This document shows positions 23,919 through 32,604 of a stretch of 33,678 nt of DNA, in pieces. The notes beneath the pieces are model-generated. The model was not told where the DNA came from and searched no databases. It saw only the letters and a program-made list of their open reading frames with translations. The DNA is taken from the IMG/VR virus record IMGVR_UViG_3300042988_000161, positions 1 through 33,678 of that record; one strand, 5' to 3'. The position numbers were made by a program, and so were the translations under genes. The DNA comes from a virus. The stretch's first letter is position 1, and each line of letters starts with the position of its first letter.

Positions 23919-24383
23919 ATGGGCGCATTAATTTCATTTTTGGGCGGTTCGGTGTTCCGCATGATTTGGGGCGAAGTCTCGTCAGCTTGGACGAAGCATC
24001 AGGATCACAAGCAGGAAATCGAGGCGACCCGGTTACAGGCCGAACTCGAGGCGGCGCGACATACTCGCGAACTGGAACGACTGCGCGTCGTTTCCGATCT
24101 CGGGATCAAAGAGATCGAGGTTCGGAGCGATGCCGAGATCGAGGCGAAAGACGCCGACGCATTTATCGCCGCGATGTCAACGGTCAACCGCAAGACCGGG
24201 ATTGATTGGGTCGACGCTTGGAACGGTTCGATTCGTCCGGCGGCGGCGACGACCGCGTTGTTGCTCTGGTGGTTTTGCCTGTATCAAAACGGGTTTCAAC
24301 TCACCGAATGGGACAAGGAACTCGTCGGCGTGATCCTCGGTTTCTACTTCGCGCATCGCGTGTTTGCCAGCCGCGCCAAATGA
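23919..24383 (+). CDS. Holin, 3-TM GTA-type family
   Basis: 154 aa with AAGGGG 5 nt before ATG 23919. The layout is an amphipathic N-terminus (GALISFLGGSVFRMIWGEVS), a long charged coiled coil (residues about 25-85), then GIDWVDAWNGSIRPAAATTA, and two hydrophobic spans (TALLLWWFCLYQNGF; LVGVILGFYFAHRVF). The WVDAWNGSIRP motif is typical of the 3-TM holin family described from gene transfer agents. It would form membrane lesions that release the endolysin coded immediately downstream (ATGA overlap). Confidence 0.8.
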   Translation: MGALISFLGGSVFRMIWGEVSSAWTKHQDHKQEIEATRLQAELEAARHTRELERLRVVSDLGIKEIEVRSDAEIEAKDADAFIAAMSTVNRKTGIDWVDAWNGSIRPAAATTALLLWWFCLYQNGFQLTEWDKELVGVILGFYFAHRVFASRAK

Positions 24384-24805
24384 ACGAACTCGACGCCCTG
24401 ATTGAGATCGTCAAACGGTTCGAGGGTTGCCGGTTGCGGGCATACTTTTGCCCCGCTGGCATCGTCACGATCGGGTGGGGATCGACCGGCCCGGGCATTG
24501 TTCCGGGTCTGGTCTGGACTCAACAGCAAGCCGACGACCGACTCCGGGCGGATTGCCGGGCGTTTCTGCGCGGCACTCGGAAGGTATGCCCCGGCGTTGA
24601 GTTTGGTTCGATCGTCGCCGCTGCGGATTTCGCCTATAACCTCGGCCTCGGTCGGTTGAAGTCGTCGACGTTCCGCCGAAAGCTGATCGTCGGCGACATC
24701 GAGGCGGCGGAAGTCCAGCTTATGCGATGGACGAAAGCCGGGGGCAAAGTGTTGCCGGGATTGGTCAGGCGACGCCGCGCCGAGGTCGCGCTTTTGGGTC
24801 AATAA
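24380..24805 (+). CDS. Endolysin, T4-type lysozyme (GH24)
   Basis: 141 aa, starting in the holin stop (ATGA). The catalytic triad E15-x8-C24-x5-T30 (FEGCRLRAYFCPAGIVTIGW) is the GH24 signature, with Cys where T4 lysozyme has Asp; that variant is known among phage lysozymes. The C-terminal half has AADFAYNLGLGRLKSSTFRR and GGKVLPGLVRRRRAEVALL, standard for the fold. There is no signal peptide or SAR helix, so release should depend on the holin. It cuts the MurNAc-GlcNAc bond. Last gene of the plus-strand block. Confidence 0.93.
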   Translation: MNELDALIEIVKRFEGCRLRAYFCPAGIVTIGWGSTGPGIVPGLVWTQQQADDRLRADCRAFLRGTRKVCPGVEFGSIVAAADFAYNLGLGRLKSSTFRRKLIVGDIEAAEVQLMRWTKAGGKVLPGLVRRRRAEVALLGQ

Positions 24806-24882
24806 AGTTTTGCAATTCGGAAAGCGAACGCGGTTTTATGCGGGTTTCCGAAGGGTAAAAATCAGGAAATTGCAAAACAAAA

Positions 24883-24900
24883 ACGCCCCGCGAGGGGCGT
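24883..24900 (-). terminator. Intrinsic terminator, minus strand
   Basis: ACGCCCC (24883-24889) pairs with GGGGCGT (24894-24900) over a 4-nt loop. Read on the minus strand, the stem is followed by TTTTTGTTTT. It would stop the minus-strand operon and any transcript crossing the tRNA fragment. On the plus strand there is no U-run after the stem, so it is not a plus terminator. Confidence 0.8.
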
Positions 24901-24921
24901 CATTACTGGATCGCATTAGCT

Positions 24922-24962
24922 GATTTCGAGTCCGGCGCATTCGACCACTCTGCCACCTCTCC
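24922..24962 (-). other. 5' half of a tRNA-Ser(CGA) gene
   Basis: On the minus strand from 24962: acceptor strand GGAGAGG, T8, a D-arm with GCA...TGC stem and AGTGGTCGAA loop, then the anticodon loop CTCGAAA with anticodon CGA (24928-24930). Past TC (positions 39-40) the match to tRNA-Ser stops: the anticodon stem pairs only partly and there is no variable arm, T-arm or 3' acceptor strand. It is therefore not a functional tRNA but a core homologous to a host tRNA gene up to the anticodon loop. Confidence 0.75.
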
Positions 24963-25046
24963 GGGCTTGTCTCGCAAGGGTTTGCGAGATCGGTCAGTTT
25001 TGCAATTCGGCGAAGGTTTTGCAATTCGCCGAAAAGCGAGGTCGGA

Positions 25047-25445
25047 TTATAAAGCAAGGCGAATGTTTTTTACCGAAATCCATTCCACAAATTTCAACAC
25101 CTCGGCGACGTCGGTTCCCTTGAGTAATTCATGTCGCCGCCGGTGTCTCGGATGTGCGTTTTCTAAATCAAATTCAACCATCGCTTTCGTTTTTGTTTTA
25201 TCGAAAGCGATCACACGCCCCCTTCGGTTTTTCTTTTCGTTTATCACCATCGACCCGACTGTCAACGAACCGAGCGATTCATATTCAGCACCGTCCCAAT
25301 CGACGACCGATTTAATGATCCGATATTTGGACAAAGAGTCGCCATCGGACAATTCTTTAATCCGGTTTATCGCGGTCAGTCGGTCAACGTCGCCCGATTC
25401 CAAATCGACATATTCAGAACCGATCAGTTTTTGAATCGTTCGCAT
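25047..25445 (-). CDS. Hypothetical protein, 132 aa
   Basis: ATG 25445 has GAGGG 7 nt upstream (inside the KorA-like gene), better than GTG 25451. The N-terminus (RTIQKLIGSEYVDLESGDVD, RLTAINRIKELSDGDSLSKY) looks like an early gene product with helical content. The middle (LGSLTVGSMVINEKKNRRGR) reads as a small beta-barrel, and the C-terminus has basic HPRHRRRHELLKG. No family recognised. Last gene of the promoter-proximal minus operon, directly next to attP. A DNA-binding or regulatory role would fit the basic segment, but that is inference. Confidence 0.6.
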   Translation of the reverse strand: MRTIQKLIGSEYVDLESGDVDRLTAINRIKELSDGDSLSKYRIIKSVVDWDGAEYESLGSLTVGSMVINEKKNRRGRVIAFDKTKTKAMVEFDLENAHPRHRRRHELLKGTDVAEVLKFVEWISVKNIRLAL

Positions 25446-25447
25446 GT

Positions 25448-25624
25448 TCACACCCTCTTTTGAAAGCTGGCGACCGCCCGGCTCACCGCCTGACGATGCA
25501 CCCCGACCGCCTTCGCGGCGTCGGTCTGACTCTTACCCTCGACGAAAACCATCCGCAACGCTTCGCGGATGGTCGCCTGATAACGCGAGCCGACAAGGCG
25601 GTCGGCGAATTCTGCCGGGGTCAT
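25448..25624 (-). CDS. KorA/TrfB-like HTH regulator, 58 aa
   Basis: Starts at ATG 25624 in the stop of the upstream gene (ATGA) and ends at TGA 25448, just before the next gene. It reads TPAEFADRLVGSRYQATIRE, then an HTH: FVEGKSQTDAAKAVGVHRQAVSRAV with flanking residues. This is the TrfB/KorA domain pattern, in which a G-K-S-Q-T-(D/E)-A-A segment begins the HTH. KorA proteins of broad-host-range plasmids repress by binding palindromes near promoters. A candidate repressor of the promoter at 26535-26563 (inference). Confidence 0.7.
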   Translation of the reverse strand: MTPAEFADRLVGSRYQATIREALRMVFVEGKSQTDAAKAVGVHRQAVSRAVASFQKRV

Positions 25625-26594: not shown

Positions 26595-27602
26595 TTATCG
26601 CGTCGGCTCGACCTTTTGCCCGCGGCGTTTCCGCGAATAGTGTTCGGTCATGCTGACCGTCGAATGACCGGCCAACGCTTGCGCGTCGCGGATGTTACCG
26701 GTCGCGTCCTCTTTATCGCTGACCGCCTTCGCCCGCAGATCGCGGAACTGTATATCGTCCGTTATCCCGGCGGCGACCCGGGCGCGTTTCCAAAGTATCG
26801 AAAGCCATTGCACCGAAATCGGTTTCCCGTGATCGCCGACGATCAACGCCGTGTTGACGACCGTTCCCGACTTCGCCGCCCGGCACTCGGCGACGAGTTC
26901 CGCCAGCCGACCGACGACGGCGATTCGCACCGGCGTCCCGGTCTTGCCTTGCCGGACTTGGATATACCCGTCGCGGATGTCGGTTTCGCGCATTTTCAGC
27001 ACGTCCGCCGGGCGTTGCCCGGTGAGATAAGCGAGTTCGATCGCTAGTTGCAACGTCCGCGGCCCATGCGATGCGACCCGATCGACCTGTTCGTCGGTCA
27101 GGTACACGTCGCGCCCCGTCTCGGCGTTACGCTTGACGCCCTCGCAAGGGTTCGCCCGGTCGGTCATGCCCCATTCGCGCGCGTGATTCCACAACGACGA
27201 CAAAACGGCGATGTTCCGATTCGCTTGAACGCCCTTCCGCCATTCGCGGAACTGCGCGACGTGGATCGGCTGGATGTCGGCGAGCGTCGCGCCGTCGAAA
27301 AACTGGCGCAGGAATTTGAGCGCGGACTGATAGTCGATTTGCGTCCGGGTCGACTTGGTCGGGATGATCACCGACTCATATTTCCGGGCGGCGTCCTCGA
27401 ACGAAAACACCGACCGCATTTTCGCGTTGCCGCCTTCGAGGTCGGCCCATTGCCGGACGGCGTCAATGTAATCGGTGCCGAGCGGTTTATATCTCGGTTT
27501 CGACGCCGCGCCTTGGTCATAATAATAGTACGCGCGACCCTTCGCCCGGATCGCGACGAGGCGGGTCGGCAGATTCTTATTTGTTGAGCGGGGTCGGGCC
27601 AT
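26595..27602 (-). CDS. int: Tyrosine recombinase (phage integrase)
   Basis: 335 aa from ATG 27602, which overlaps the DUF4224 stop (TAATG). The arm-binding N-terminus has GRAYYYYDQGAASKPRYKPL. The SAM-like core-binding domain spans about residues 65-150, and the catalytic domain about 165-335. Catalytic residues: R197 (TGQRPADV), K220 (QGKTG), R290 (FRDLRAKA), H313 (LAGHSTV) and Y322 (TEHYSRK). The usual box II His is Arg (R287), a variation common in integrases of this type. It should act on the attP at 24807-25033. The ribosome site is weak (GAGAT close to ATG), so translation may depend on coupling to the upstream gene. Confidence 0.95.
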   Translation of the reverse strand: MARPRSTNKNLPTRLVAIRAKGRAYYYYDQGAASKPRYKPLGTDYIDAVRQWADLEGGNAKMRSVFSFEDAARKYESVIIPTKSTRTQIDYQSALKFLRQFFDGATLADIQPIHVAQFREWRKGVQANRNIAVLSSLWNHAREWGMTDRANPCEGVKRNAETGRDVYLTDEQVDRVASHGPRTLQLAIELAYLTGQRPADVLKMRETDIRDGYIQVRQGKTGTPVRIAVVGRLAELVAECRAAKSGTVVNTALIVGDHGKPISVQWLSILWKRARVAAGITDDIQFRDLRAKAVSDKEDATGNIRDAQALAGHSTVSMTEHYSRKRRGQKVEPTR

Positions 27603-27820
27603 TATCTCAAGACGGGCGGCGTCCAAGTTTGAACAAGGTCATTTTGCGCCGGTTGCGTCCGCCCTTCAATAGCCGATCGAGCGACGACCGGATTGCCCGA
27701 GGCATTGACCCAAAACGGGACGCCCATGCGGCGAAGCTGATCGCATTGCGCGCCCTTTTGTTTGCGTCCGGTCAATGCCTCGATCTCGGACTTAACGAGA
27801 AAAGCGAAAGCGTTGTTCAT
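27602..27820 (-). CDS. DUF4224 protein (integrase-associated)
   Basis: 72 aa from ATG 27820, with GGGGGCGG upstream; the start lies in the stop of the zinc-finger gene (ATGA). FLVKSEIEALTGRKQKGAQC, then DQLRRMGVPFWVNASGNPVV, is the DUF4224 pattern. These small proteins are nearly always coded directly before phage integrases and are thought to be DNA-binding excisionase-like factors, though this is not established. The TAATG overlap with int supports co-translation. Confidence 0.85.
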   Translation of the reverse strand: MNNAFAFLVKSEIEALTGRKQKGAQCDQLRRMGVPFWVNASGNPVVARSAIEGRTQPAQNDLVQTWTPPVLR

Positions 27821-28465: not shown

Positions 28466-28593
28466 TTGAGTAGCGCCTTTGCCGAAAATATAGCGATCCC
28501 GATCCACCATCCAACGAGCGACGCTGACGAGATAAACAGAATTAAATATAAAAAGACGCCGACAACCGCGTCGAGCCATGTTTCGTTTTTCAT
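28462..28593 (-). CDS. Membrane microprotein, 43 aa
   Basis: Runs from ATG 28593 (AAGGGG 5 nt upstream) to TGA 28462. Starts MKNETWLDAVVGVFLYLILF, then ISSASLVGWWIGIAIFSAKA. Two hydrophobic stretches form one or two membrane passes. It overlaps the helicase stop (ATGA) and the DUF6378 start, so the reading frame is bracketed by translational coupling on both sides. Function unknown; early-expressed small membrane proteins may act in superinfection exclusion. Confidence 0.65.
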   Translation of the reverse strand: MKNETWLDAVVGVFLYLILFISSASLVGWWIGIAIFSAKALLK

Positions 28594-29939
28594 GCTTGCC
28601 CCTTCATCGCATCAAGTAAAATTTGCTGAACTTCGGCCTTTGTTTCGTGCCGCTTCAAAACCAGTTCGTCGACCGTACCCCGGGCGACGATGTCGTGAAT
28701 AAAGACCGGACGATCGAACCCGGCTTGCATTTGCCGCACCGGGCCGATCCGTTCGATTAGTTGCTGGCGTTGCTCTAAATCCCACCAATGCCCTAGAAAC
28801 GCGATCTGATTGCATACGTTTTGCAATCCGTCGATGCCGTGGCCGACGCTCGCGGCGTGAACTAGCCCGATCTGATACTTGCCGGCCTTGAACGCCTTCC
28901 CGTCGTCCTCGGCGATGATCCCGGCTTTCGGGAACGCCTTGCGGATGCGGGCAAGGTCAGATTTGAAGTGATACGCCACCAGCACCGGCGCGCCGGACGC
29001 CTCGTCGATCACGCTTTCAAGCGCGTCGAGCTTTTCGTCGTGAACGTGTTCCCATGCCTCGCCGTCGGTGTAGATCGCGCCGTTCGCAATCTGCAAACAC
29101 TTGATCGTCAGGCTCGCGGCGTTCAACGCCTCGACCTCACTTCCGGCGATCTCGGCGAACATGGTTTTTTCGAGGTCGCGATATATCTGCCGGGCGTGAT
29201 CCGGCAAGTCGACCTTGATGACGTTGTGAATCGGGTCTTTCAGATCGAAATAATCCCGGGGATCAAGCGTCAGGCATACATCGGCGAGCAAATCCTGTAT
29301 CTCGCCTTGAGAATGCGGCATCGGGATCACGCCGAACCCGCTCGGGTGTTGCTTGAACCATCGGTCGGTATACGCCGAGAAAGTCCGCCCGAGGCGAACG
29401 CCGGCGTCGATGAACCATTGCTGACCCCACAAGTCGACGAGGCCGAGCGGCGCCGGGGTGCCGGTCAGGTTGACGAACCGCGTCGCGTACTTATGCGCGA
29501 CTTTCGACAACGCCTTCGCGCGCTTGCCGCCTTGCCGGGTGCGGAACGATTTCAGCTTGGTCGACTCGTCGGCGATGATGGTGCGGAACGGCCAACGGTC
29601 GCCGAATTGCTCGACCAGTTTCGGCAACTGTTCATAATTGATCGTTACGATGTCCGCATCGGGTAAGGCGAACGACTTCGCGCCGCATAGGGTCGCGACC
29701 TTTAGGTGCGCGAGGTGATCCCATTTCCGCGCCTCGTCAGGCCATGTCGACCGGGCGACGCGCAAGGGTGCGATCACCAGCGCCGGGAACACGTCCTCGA
29801 CGATCGACAACTGATCGAGGGCGGTCAGGGTTGAGACGGTTTTTCCGCCGCCCATGAAGCACCACAGCGCGCACCGCGGGGATCGCTGGATATGCTCGAT
29901 TGCTTTGATCTGGTACGGGCGCGGGGTGAACTGGCTCAC
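28590..29939 (-). CDS. SNF2-type helicase / ATPase
   Basis: 449 aa from GTG 29939 (GGAG 8 nt upstream). PRPYQIKAIEHIQ is the Q-like motif; Walker A is FMGGGKT (residues 28-34). LVIAPLRVARSTWPDEARKW is motif Ia, IIADES is motif II, LTGTPAP is motif III, and the second RecA lobe has LVAYHFKSDLARI and HWWDLEQRQQLIERIGPVRQ (motif VI-like). Compact SNF2-family proteins with this pattern are common next to VRR-NUC nucleases and DNA polymerases in phage replication modules. It likely remodels or unwinds DNA during replication or recombination. The start overlaps the preceding small gene (GTGA). Confidence 0.9.
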   Translation of the reverse strand: MSQFTPRPYQIKAIEHIQRSPRCALWCFMGGGKTVSTLTALDQLSIVEDVFPALVIAPLRVARSTWPDEARKWDHLAHLKVATLCGAKSFALPDADIVTINYEQLPKLVEQFGDRWPFRTIIADESTKLKSFRTRQGGKRAKALSKVAHKYATRFVNLTGTPAPLGLVDLWGQQWFIDAGVRLGRTFSAYTDRWFKQHPSGFGVIPMPHSQGEIQDLLADVCLTLDPRDYFDLKDPIHNVIKVDLPDHARQIYRDLEKTMFAEIAGSEVEALNAASLTIKCLQIANGAIYTDGEAWEHVHDEKLDALESVIDEASGAPVLVAYHFKSDLARIRKAFPKAGIIAEDDGKAFKAGKYQIGLVHAASVGHGIDGLQNVCNQIAFLGHWWDLEQRQQLIERIGPVRQMQAGFDRPVFIHDIVARGTVDELVLKRHETKAEVQQILLDAMKGQA

Positions 29940-30106
29940 AGTTTGCACTCCGTCAGGTATTGAACGCGATGCGAGCCGGCATATTCCATTTCGACCGAGC
30001 ATTCTTGAGGCCCGGCGAACGACGCAAGCGTCAGGAATATCCCGGTCGCGAGGCCGATCGCAAACATCAGCAACGCCGCAAAAACGCCGAACTGACTATC
30101 TGACAT
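29936..30106 (-). CDS. Small exported or membrane protein, 56 aa
   Basis: From ATG 30106 (GGGG 6 nt upstream) to TGA 29936. One hydrophobic segment (FAALLMFAIGLATGIFLTLA) near the N-terminus precedes a short tail with two cysteines (C36, C54) and FAGPQECSVEMEYAGSHRVQ, so the tail may lie outside the cytoplasm with a disulfide. It overlaps the nuclease gene by 11 nt and the helicase start by GTGA. Function unknown; a superinfection-exclusion type role is a guess. Confidence 0.6.
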   Translation of the reverse strand: MSDSQFGVFAALLMFAIGLATGIFLTLASFAGPQECSVEMEYAGSHRVQYLTECKL

Positions 30107-30717: not shown

Positions 30718-30796
30718 TTTTTTGCCCCTTCCGTTTCGGTTGAGATTTCAAAAAGCGGCGAAGCGATACGCCTTGCATGAGTCGATAAGGGTTCAT
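30605..30796 (-). CDS. Basic small protein, 63 aa, overlapping frame
   Basis: ATG 30796 lies in the polymerase stop (ATGA) with GGGGG 4 nt upstream, so initiation looks likely. MNPYRLMQGVSLRRFLKSQP begins a basic protein that runs to 30605. Its last ~37 residues overlap the 48-aa gene in a different frame and look less like coding sequence. Either both are made, or translation of this frame mainly serves to deliver ribosomes to the next start. Confidence 0.4.
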   Translation of the reverse strand: MNPYRLMQGVSLRRFLKSQPKRKGQKNDREIIASGIRTPLAARRAARATDSGLDSPRCGSGNP

Positions 30797-32553
30797 GCGA
30801 CCCCCACGTCCGCGAGGATCGAATGCGCCTCGCCGATGTACCATTCGAGATTGACGTCAGCGGGAACCGCTGGCGGAAGTTGCATCAACGGGCGCGCCCC
30901 TTCCGAGCGGGCGACCGTGTAGCCGTTGACCTTGTATTGAATGACGCCGGTTTCGCCCTCGGCGTAATACCAGCGGACGGCGCGACCGAGATATTCGTCG
31001 CCCTTGACCGCCCCGCCCTTGACCTGTCGGATCGTGACGAGCTTCCGCACGTCATCGCATCCGCGGATCGTTTCCTCGACCGGGACGCCTTTGACTAACG
31101 CCTTGACGACGGCCTCGACGCAAATCTGATTGACCGGGTTTTTCGCAAGCCCGGGCGGTGCATACGCGCCTTTTAACTTGATCCCGCCGTCGGTTTTCAG
31201 GGCGATATAATTGTTCACGTCGCGCGAATACAGGGCGGAATAATTGGTCGCCTCGGTGTCGAACCCGGTCACGATTTCCCATGCGGCGATCAAGCGGTCG
31301 AGCTTTTCGACGTCGCGCTTGTGGGCCTTGATGACAATGCCGTCGGTGTTTGCCGAAACGACCGCGATGCCTTCGTCCTCGAGCATTTCGATCAGCATCA
31401 AAAGCGATAACTGCCCGGTGATCGTGGTCTGAATCAAAAGATGCGGCGCATACAGGATCGAGTAACGCGACCCGAACTTACCGAATGAACCGTTGATCGT
31501 GATCTTGAGGGTATCGGCGACGACCTTGTTGCCGGAATGCTTCGCGGCGAGCCGTTGTTCGACGATGGTGCGATAAACGTCGAGGAAACGCGGCCCGAGG
31601 TTTTCCGGGTAAAGACCCGTCCGCAGGATGATCGCCGGATAATAGGACGCAACGTCGCGGTCGATCAGGACATGGTCGTCATCGCATACATGGGCGACGC
31701 CCGACTCGGTCGAATGCAATCCGCCGATGCCCATGCGATACACGCTCGACCCGATGCGGATGTCGAGATCGGACAACTCTTTCGGGAGTCCGATCTTGCC
31801 GCCGTCTTGAACGATGAACTCGGTCGCCTCGACGGTTGCCAGCACGTCGCGCAATTGGGCGGTCGTGAACGAAATATAGTTCGGCGTCTTGAACCGGATC
31901 ACCTTGCCGACCTCGACGGTCGCTTTCTTGATCCGTCCGCCGATCCGGGCCTTGATCACCGCCTCGGCGATCTGCGCGTCGGACTTACTGCGAACATCCT
32001 CGCCGATGTCTTTCGACATTGCCCCGCGAAGGTCGATTTGCGGCTCAAGGGCGCGATATAGTTCGGTTGTGACAGTCAGGTCATTCGCGCAGTATTCGCG
32101 AAGCTGGACGCGATCCGCGGGGCTAATTGACGCACTCGGTTCGATCGGTAAGTCTTGCATCCGCTCGGAATGAATCCGCCCGCCGTAAATCTTGAGGCTG
32201 GCGACGCCCGGGGCGACTTCGATCAGGTCAATGTGATCCAGTTCATACACCGCCGCATATTTGTCGGCGAATTGCCACGGTTTCAGATTCCGGTTGATGA
32301 TGTCATCCGCCGCGGCCTTGAGTTCGGCATTCGTCGCCCCGGCGAGCGCATAGGACATCAACGGCATGTCGAACGATGCGGAATTGAACCCGATCAGGGT
32401 CACGTCGCGGATTCTCGCCTTGAGGCCGTCAACGTCGAGCGGATGGCCGGGGTAAATCTCGAACAGGTCGATCCGGCCTTTGATCAGGTCGCGGAAGGCG
32501 ATCAGGAAATAATCCTGATATACCTCGATGTCGAATACGATTTTTTGCCGCAT
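30793..32553 (-). CDS. Family B DNA polymerase
   Basis: 586 aa from ATG 32553 (GAGG 5 nt upstream); an earlier ATG at 32568 lacks a good site. The proofreading exonuclease has D8/E10 in VFDIEVYQD, N57...D62 in GFNSASFDMPL and Y154...D158 in YCANDLTV. Polymerase motif A is DVASYYPAIIL (D300), motif B is LKITINGSFGKFG (K350), and motif C is SANTDGIVI (D404). Motif C reads NTDG instead of the usual DTDS; the second Asp, the main metal ligand, is kept. The protein is compact compared with ~900-aa family members. It should replicate phage DNA together with the ssDNA-binding protein, helicase and nuclease nearby. Confidence 0.9.
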   Translation of the reverse strand: MRQKIVFDIEVYQDYFLIAFRDLIKGRIDLFEIYPGHPLDVDGLKARIRDVTLIGFNSASFDMPLMSYALAGATNAELKAAADDIINRNLKPWQFADKYAAVYELDHIDLIEVAPGVASLKIYGGRIHSERMQDLPIEPSASISPADRVQLREYCANDLTVTTELYRALEPQIDLRGAMSKDIGEDVRSKSDAQIAEAVIKARIGGRIKKATVEVGKVIRFKTPNYISFTTAQLRDVLATVEATEFIVQDGGKIGLPKELSDLDIRIGSSVYRMGIGGLHSTESGVAHVCDDDHVLIDRDVASYYPAIILRTGLYPENLGPRFLDVYRTIVEQRLAAKHSGNKVVADTLKITINGSFGKFGSRYSILYAPHLLIQTTITGQLSLLMLIEMLEDEGIAVVSANTDGIVIKAHKRDVEKLDRLIAAWEIVTGFDTEATNYSALYSRDVNNYIALKTDGGIKLKGAYAPPGLAKNPVNQICVEAVVKALVKGVPVEETIRGCDDVRKLVTIRQVKGGAVKGDEYLGRAVRWYYAEGETGVIQYKVNGYTVARSEGARPLMQLPPAVPADVNLEWYIGEAHSILADVGVA

Positions 32554-32567
32554 GTTTTCCTCTTTCA

Positions 32568-32604
32568 TTTTTTAAAGCCGACTCGTTGAATCAGCTTTAA
32601 AAAA
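32568..32604 (-). promoter_or_regulatory. Perfect 11-bp hairpin before the polymerase gene
   Basis: TTTTTTAAAGC (32568-32578) and GCTTTAAAAAA (32594-32604) pair perfectly over a 15-nt loop. One arm is the U-tract of the terminator next to it and the other runs into ATG 32568. In the minus-strand RNA it could fold in competition with the terminator or shield the translation start. Confidence 0.6.

Follow-up and report, generated by a model that had tools for sequence, protein, structure and literature searches.

A putative phage attachment site carrying the 5′ half of tRNA-Ser(CGA), with a candidate promoter for the rebuilt gene

A tRNA half lies between repeated arm sites

The IMG/VR virus record IMGVR_UViG_3300042988_000161 comprises 33,678 nucleotides (nt), and this whole stretch is called the window below. 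We examined a region of it that probably serves as the attachment site (attP) of a temperate phage and carries the 5′ half of a transfer RNA (tRNA) gene, tRNA-Ser(CGA). An endolysin gene (24206-24805, plus strand) converges on the region from one side. On the other side, the last gene before it is an open reading frame (ORF) of 134 amino acids (aa) to which no function was assigned (25047-25451, minus strand), next to a 58-aa putative helix-turn-helix ORF (25448-25624, minus strand) with weak PHROG matches, one of them a sigma factor. A tyrosine integrase of 343 aa (PF00589, E = 3.8e-20) is encoded on the minus strand at 26595-27626; the putative attP, centred near 24927, lies outside this gene, about 1.6 kilobases (kb) downstream.

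The tRNA half occupies 24922-24962 on the minus strand; it starts at G1, includes the anticodon loop and stops after 2 nt of the 3′ anticodon stem. Read from 24962 to 24922 it is the 41-mer GGAGAGGTGGCAGAGTGGTCGAATGCGCCGGACTCGAAATC, and nt 1-41 of complete bacterial tRNA-Ser(CGA) genes show no differences from it. The identity to the host tRNA-Ser(CGA) begins at G1 exactly and ends 2 nt beyond the 7-nt anticodon loop, which confirms the match from G1 through the loop that had been proposed from the letters alone in a first-pass annotation. Complete matching genes occurred in 2 of 299 genomes in a phylum-wide sample and in 10 of 121 genomes of one family. When the phage 5′ half was joined in silico to a host 3′ half, ARAGORN called tRNA-Ser(CGA); it called no tRNA at the opposite in silico junction or at attP. 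Run on the whole window, ARAGORN found no complete tRNA and thus no complementing phage tRNA gene. Another virus record of this phage, 99.98% identical over 15 kb, has the tRNA-half site as well.

Repeats that look like integrase arm sites flank this half. In the 33.7 kb there are four exact copies of GTTTTGCAATT, all inside 24807-25026, three on the plus strand and one inverted. Two form a tandem pair on the P′ side, with the outer copy at 25016-25026 and the inner copy 19 nt from it at 24997-25007. On the P side are the inverted site (24868-24878, minus strand) and an outer single site (24807-24817, plus strand). The anticodon loop is CTCGAAA (24924-24930, minus strand); relative to its centre, the positions are +55 and +114 for the single arms, and -76 and -95 for the two tandem copies. 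With at most one mismatch allowed, GTTTTGCAATT gave 7 matches compared with 0.89 expected, and no shuffle reached 7. A chance origin of the four-arm cluster together with the tRNA match is excluded.

The arm layout is conserved in the integrase family

We gathered relatives of the integrase (34-54% identity) from viral contigs, phage records and genomes, the last sampled by taxon. In most relatives measured, the inverted arm lies 53-55 nt and the outer single arm 111-117 nt from the loop centre. Five attPs of the family that carry a 3′ half (L095, L104, L105, L112 and L090) place the inverted arm at 53-54 nt and the outer arm at 113-115 nt, and another 3′-half relative, L092, deviates from the common spacing. 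On the other side of the loop, the 3′-half relatives have an arm pair 18-22 nt apart. Throughout the family the phage-carried tRNA half is bounded by the loop on one side and by the paired arms on the other, and the module faces either way relative to the integrase gene.

Because the arms in the window fit this family layout around the loop, the 7 base pairs (bp) of CTCGAAA are the presumed crossover (overlap) region. The conserved arm-to-loop spacing supports the interpretation of 24807-25026 as an attP. The earlier readings of the four repeats as integrase arms and of the region as attP were thus supported, with four exact copies at family-typical distances on both sides.

Integrated relatives contain a tRNA rebuilt from the phage 5′ half

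Two integrated prophages of the family, in genomes G1106 and G208, also carry a 5′ half. In G1106 the integrase gene (C2:208893-209903) is followed on the same strand by a complete tRNA-Arg(TCT) gene (210004-210080), and an orphan 41-nt 5′ half lies at C2:165526-165566; terminase, tape measure and other tail genes are encoded between the orphan half and the full tRNA. The prophage of G208 has its orphan half at C1:206789-206829 and its complete tRNA-Arg at 250520-250595, and a 243-aa gene separates the integrase from the tRNA. In three genomes from the same genus (G1176, G1023 and G1314) the site is empty: tRNA-Arg is intact and is preceded by a TATGAT box resembling a host promoter, in an upstream region that looked similar by eye. 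In both lysogens this box stays with the orphan half.

These junctions show that in G1106 and G208 the intact tRNA-Arg is made up of a 5′ half from the phage and a 3′ half from the host, at the integrase end, and that the orphan host 5′ half retains the host promoter at the other prophage end. The first-pass annotation had predicted this polarity and had suggested mapping both junctions as a check; the check came out as predicted in these two relatives of the window phage. The P-side arms of the two prophages are 55 and 117 nt from the loop, compared with 55 and 114 in the window. For the window phage itself we infer from the sequence identity that tRNA-Ser(CGA) is its bacterial attachment site (attB).

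A candidate promoter and a terminator flank the half

A TATAAT -10-like box at 25051-25046 (minus strand) overlaps the stop of the last minus-strand ORF, lies 83 nt before G1 and is a candidate promoter for the tRNA. Each of the three 5′-half phages has one TATNAT box pointing toward the tRNA: TATAAT at 83 nt in the window, TATCAT at 83 nt in G1106 and TATGAT at 71 nt in G208. Such a box was present in 3 of 3 5′-half phages compared with 1 of 20 control regions of 3′-half relatives (Fisher p = 0.002, for a motif picked post hoc). The upstream regions of host tRNAs had a TANNAT box 12-71 nt upstream in all 16 examined. Between the box and the half, immediately before the latter, is an 8-bp perfect hairpin without a U-run (24970-24989, minus strand); in a tRNA precursor made from a phage promoter, this hairpin would be part of the leader.

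Just past the crossover we found an intrinsic terminator on the minus strand (24901 to 24882), in agreement with the one previously placed at 24883-24900. After integration it would begin about 20 nt beyond the orphan host half. The interval from the end of the last minus-strand ORF (25047) to the tRNA half yielded no terminator. Among the 3′-half relatives, L092, L095 and L090 have a hairpin and T-run after the 3′ half, as read by eye. Together, the anatomy makes it most likely that the phage would supply both the promoter and the 5′ half.

The tRNA half has switched within the family

About 55 members of the family have an assignable tRNA half, and it is the 3′ half in all but three (about 52). 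The targets of the 3′-half relatives are tRNAs for Ser, Leu, Met, Asn, Lys, Thr, Cys, Pro and Phe, and one of them, L117, carries the 3′ half at tRNA-Ser(CGA), the same isoacceptor as in the window. The 5′-half members are the window phage and the prophages of G1106 and G208. A maximum-likelihood tree built from 61 integrases joins the window integrase to that of L083 (support 100/98) and groups G1106 and G208 as a separate pair. The distribution of the 5′-half label on this tree requires two changes or more, and the branches that impose them are well supported.

We lean slightly towards the view that the attP module is blind to polarity within the family. In this case, the half beside the paired arms would have changed from 3′ to 5′ on two or more occasions, always together with a phage-supplied promoter that puts the host tRNA under prophage control. 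The reason may be that the anticodon stem-loop is a dyad, so that either polarity would be usable if the phage carries the displaced half.

Another integrase, that of L085, is independent of the family (24% identity to the integrase of the window). In this locus (L085:1-816) the gene end is followed after 9 nt by a 5′ half of tRNA-Ser(CGA), the tRNA also represented in the window, and integration would place the tRNA directly downstream of the integrase gene. L086, a 52% relative of L085, sits at the 3′ side of an intact tRNA. We looked for an integrated copy of L085 and found none. By its arrangement L085 appears to be a further 5′-half case and gives independent support.

Two other loci were considered and rejected. 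L097 has a 5′-half-like tRNA fragment (GCCCCCGTAGCTCAGTGGATAGAGCATCCGC, L097:5190-5245) between arm sites and without a matching loop; as a fourth 5′-half attP it failed because the tRNA match stops before the loop, the spacing is not loop-centred and no matching host tRNA was found, and it was assigned to neither half. ARAGORN had reported a same-strand tRNA-Asn in L167; the 5′ portion of that call does not belong to a tRNA, and L167 is a 3′-half case.

Additional features of the family and the window

Closely related integrases differ in the facing of the att module, as seen in the integrase-side att regions of L163 compared with L167 and of L103 compared with L104, L160 and L171. Accordingly, the restored tRNA is next to the integrase in some and at the opposite end in others, even among users of the same tRNA-Asn, and the tree needs at least 6-9 changes of facing. 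In many relatives (L136-L143, L150, L106, L114, L147, L158 and L162) one or a few extra genes, often beside tRNA-Phe, lie between the integrase and the tRNA junction, possibly in a cargo slot at the prophage edge.

The integrase family was present in 18 of 250 genomes in the order of G247 and in 1 of 369 in a class-wide sample, and a single scan of genome contigs for the integrase returned one distant relative only. One related locus belongs to a Rhodoferax metagenome-assembled genome, which hints at Burkholderiales. Elsewhere in the window, the DNA polymerase (30793-32568) is about 50% identical to phage DNA polymerases B, and a SNF2-type helicase encoded near it (28590-30002) has relatives in more than 100 IMG/VR contigs.

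Discussion

As a whole, the observations are very probably best explained by an attP that carries the 5′ half of tRNA-Ser(CGA); on integration the tRNA would be rebuilt, and it may then be transcribed from the phage side. The tyrosine integrase (26595-27626) of the temperate phage would recombine at the anticodon loop of the host tRNA-Ser(CGA), and the phage would bring the gene's 5′ half, on the side of the paired arms. One junction would then read phage DNA, -10-like box, phage 5′ half and host 3′ half, giving an intact tRNA; the other would read host promoter, orphan host 5′ half and phage terminator. In the lysogen, the terminator at 24882-24901 would stop the orphan transcript of the host promoter, and in the free phage it would stop the minus-strand operon. 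The rebuilt tRNA could be transcribed from the box at 25051-25046, from the phage minus-strand operon, or from both.

Several observations weigh against this model. The box in the window has a poor -35, and a consensus promoter scan of the window gave no site at threshold. A terminator placed after the orphan half is clear in the window phage only, and the paired arms of G1106 and G208 stand back to back, not in tandem as in the window. No lysogen of the window phage was found in the genomes sampled. Moreover, L083, the nearest relative by integrase (54% identity), carries a 3′ half, and therefore the 5′-half assignment of the window cannot be derived from the family alone.

The first-pass annotation had proposed that the tRNA would lie downstream of the minus-strand operon with no terminator between. 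The arrangement itself held, and it leaves room for a variant in which the same attP is used and the tRNA is made by readthrough of that operon, not from the TATAAT box. This is conceivable, with co-directional genes immediately upstream and no terminator found before the half, but we consider it rather unlikely, because a -10-like box occurs in all three 5′-half phages. In addition, lysogens probably keep the early operon repressed. The dedicated box is thus the likelier source. The broader proposal that the phage controls expression of a host tRNA fits the anatomy and the promoter-like box, a basis that consists of DNA rather than RNA.

It is also improbable that the 5′ half is a non-functional remnant. 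The host tRNA-Ser(CGA) would then go unexpressed after integration, a loss tolerated since tRNA-Ser(UGA) also reads UCG; tRNA(CGA) is indeed dispensable in some bacteria through wobble. Integration that disrupts a tRNA also exists (PMC10865867). However, the half is perfectly preserved and begins precisely with G1, and this points to selection for a functional tRNA; no complementing tRNA is encoded in the window, and two relatives have tRNA-Arg(TCT) rebuilt whole. Finally, the fragment might be a captured piece (a decoy, a source of tRNA-fragment RNA or a transduction scar) and not an attachment site, with which the missing lysogen would agree, but arms centred on the loop and integrated relatives with the same arrangement make this barely credible.

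If the rebuilding model holds, the consequence for the host differs between the two polarities. Phages with a 3′ half leave the host tRNA promoter in charge. A 5′-half phage must supply transcription, because the host promoter is cut off from the rebuilt tRNA; the tRNA level of the lysogen would therefore depend on prophage DNA, and excision would restore host control. Since both polarities occur among sister integrases, one of them also on tRNA-Ser(CGA), and two 5′-half lysogens are mapped, the switch and its transcriptional consequence are directly testable.

Known anticodon-loop (site A) integrases with a 3′-half attP (the subsites of Williams 2002, as tabulated in Islander, PMC4383910) resemble the window in two-sided arms and integrase family, and in the loop crossover and rebuilt tRNA proposed here. 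They differ in that the window phage carries the 5′ half, by which the host promoter would be cut off rather than kept. Actinobacteriophages with tRNA-dependent lysogeny (PMC10865867) are like the proposed system in an anticodon-region attB and in a host tRNA that depends on the prophage. Integration of these phages does not restore the tRNA, whose loss is complemented by a tRNA gene of the phage. That class has a whole phage tRNA and a core too short to rebuild the gene, to which the window does not conform: its tRNA would be rebuilt, and no phage tRNA gene was found in it.

In archaea, the pTN3/TKV4-type integrases of Thermococcales also separate the rebuilt tRNA from its own promoter (PMC8371274, PMC5495485). 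With pTN3-like integrases it is the 5′ half that is used, and expression of the rebuilt tRNA has been attributed to the integrase promoter. In these archaeal elements the integrase gene itself contains attP and is split on integration, whereas the attP of the window lies outside that gene. According to a review citing Williams 2002, use of the 5′ half is seldom encountered in bacteria (PMC8371274). The Islander collection of 3919 islands lists 159 with a displaced 5′ fragment (about 4%) and 3760 with a 3′ fragment (PMC4383910), in line with the first-pass statement that most tRNA-targeting integrases carry the 3′ half. The 5′-fragment islands share a displaced host 5′ fragment and an island-supplied 5′ part. 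We found both in G1106 and G208, and the window shows the attP content only. Because these Islander and archaeal cases exist, 5′-half integration is already known, if uncommon, and the window is a further example of it. What is added here is the mapped arm architecture and geometry of the module, a promoter candidate in phage DNA, and the occurrence of both polarities among sister integrases, with at least two independent switches.
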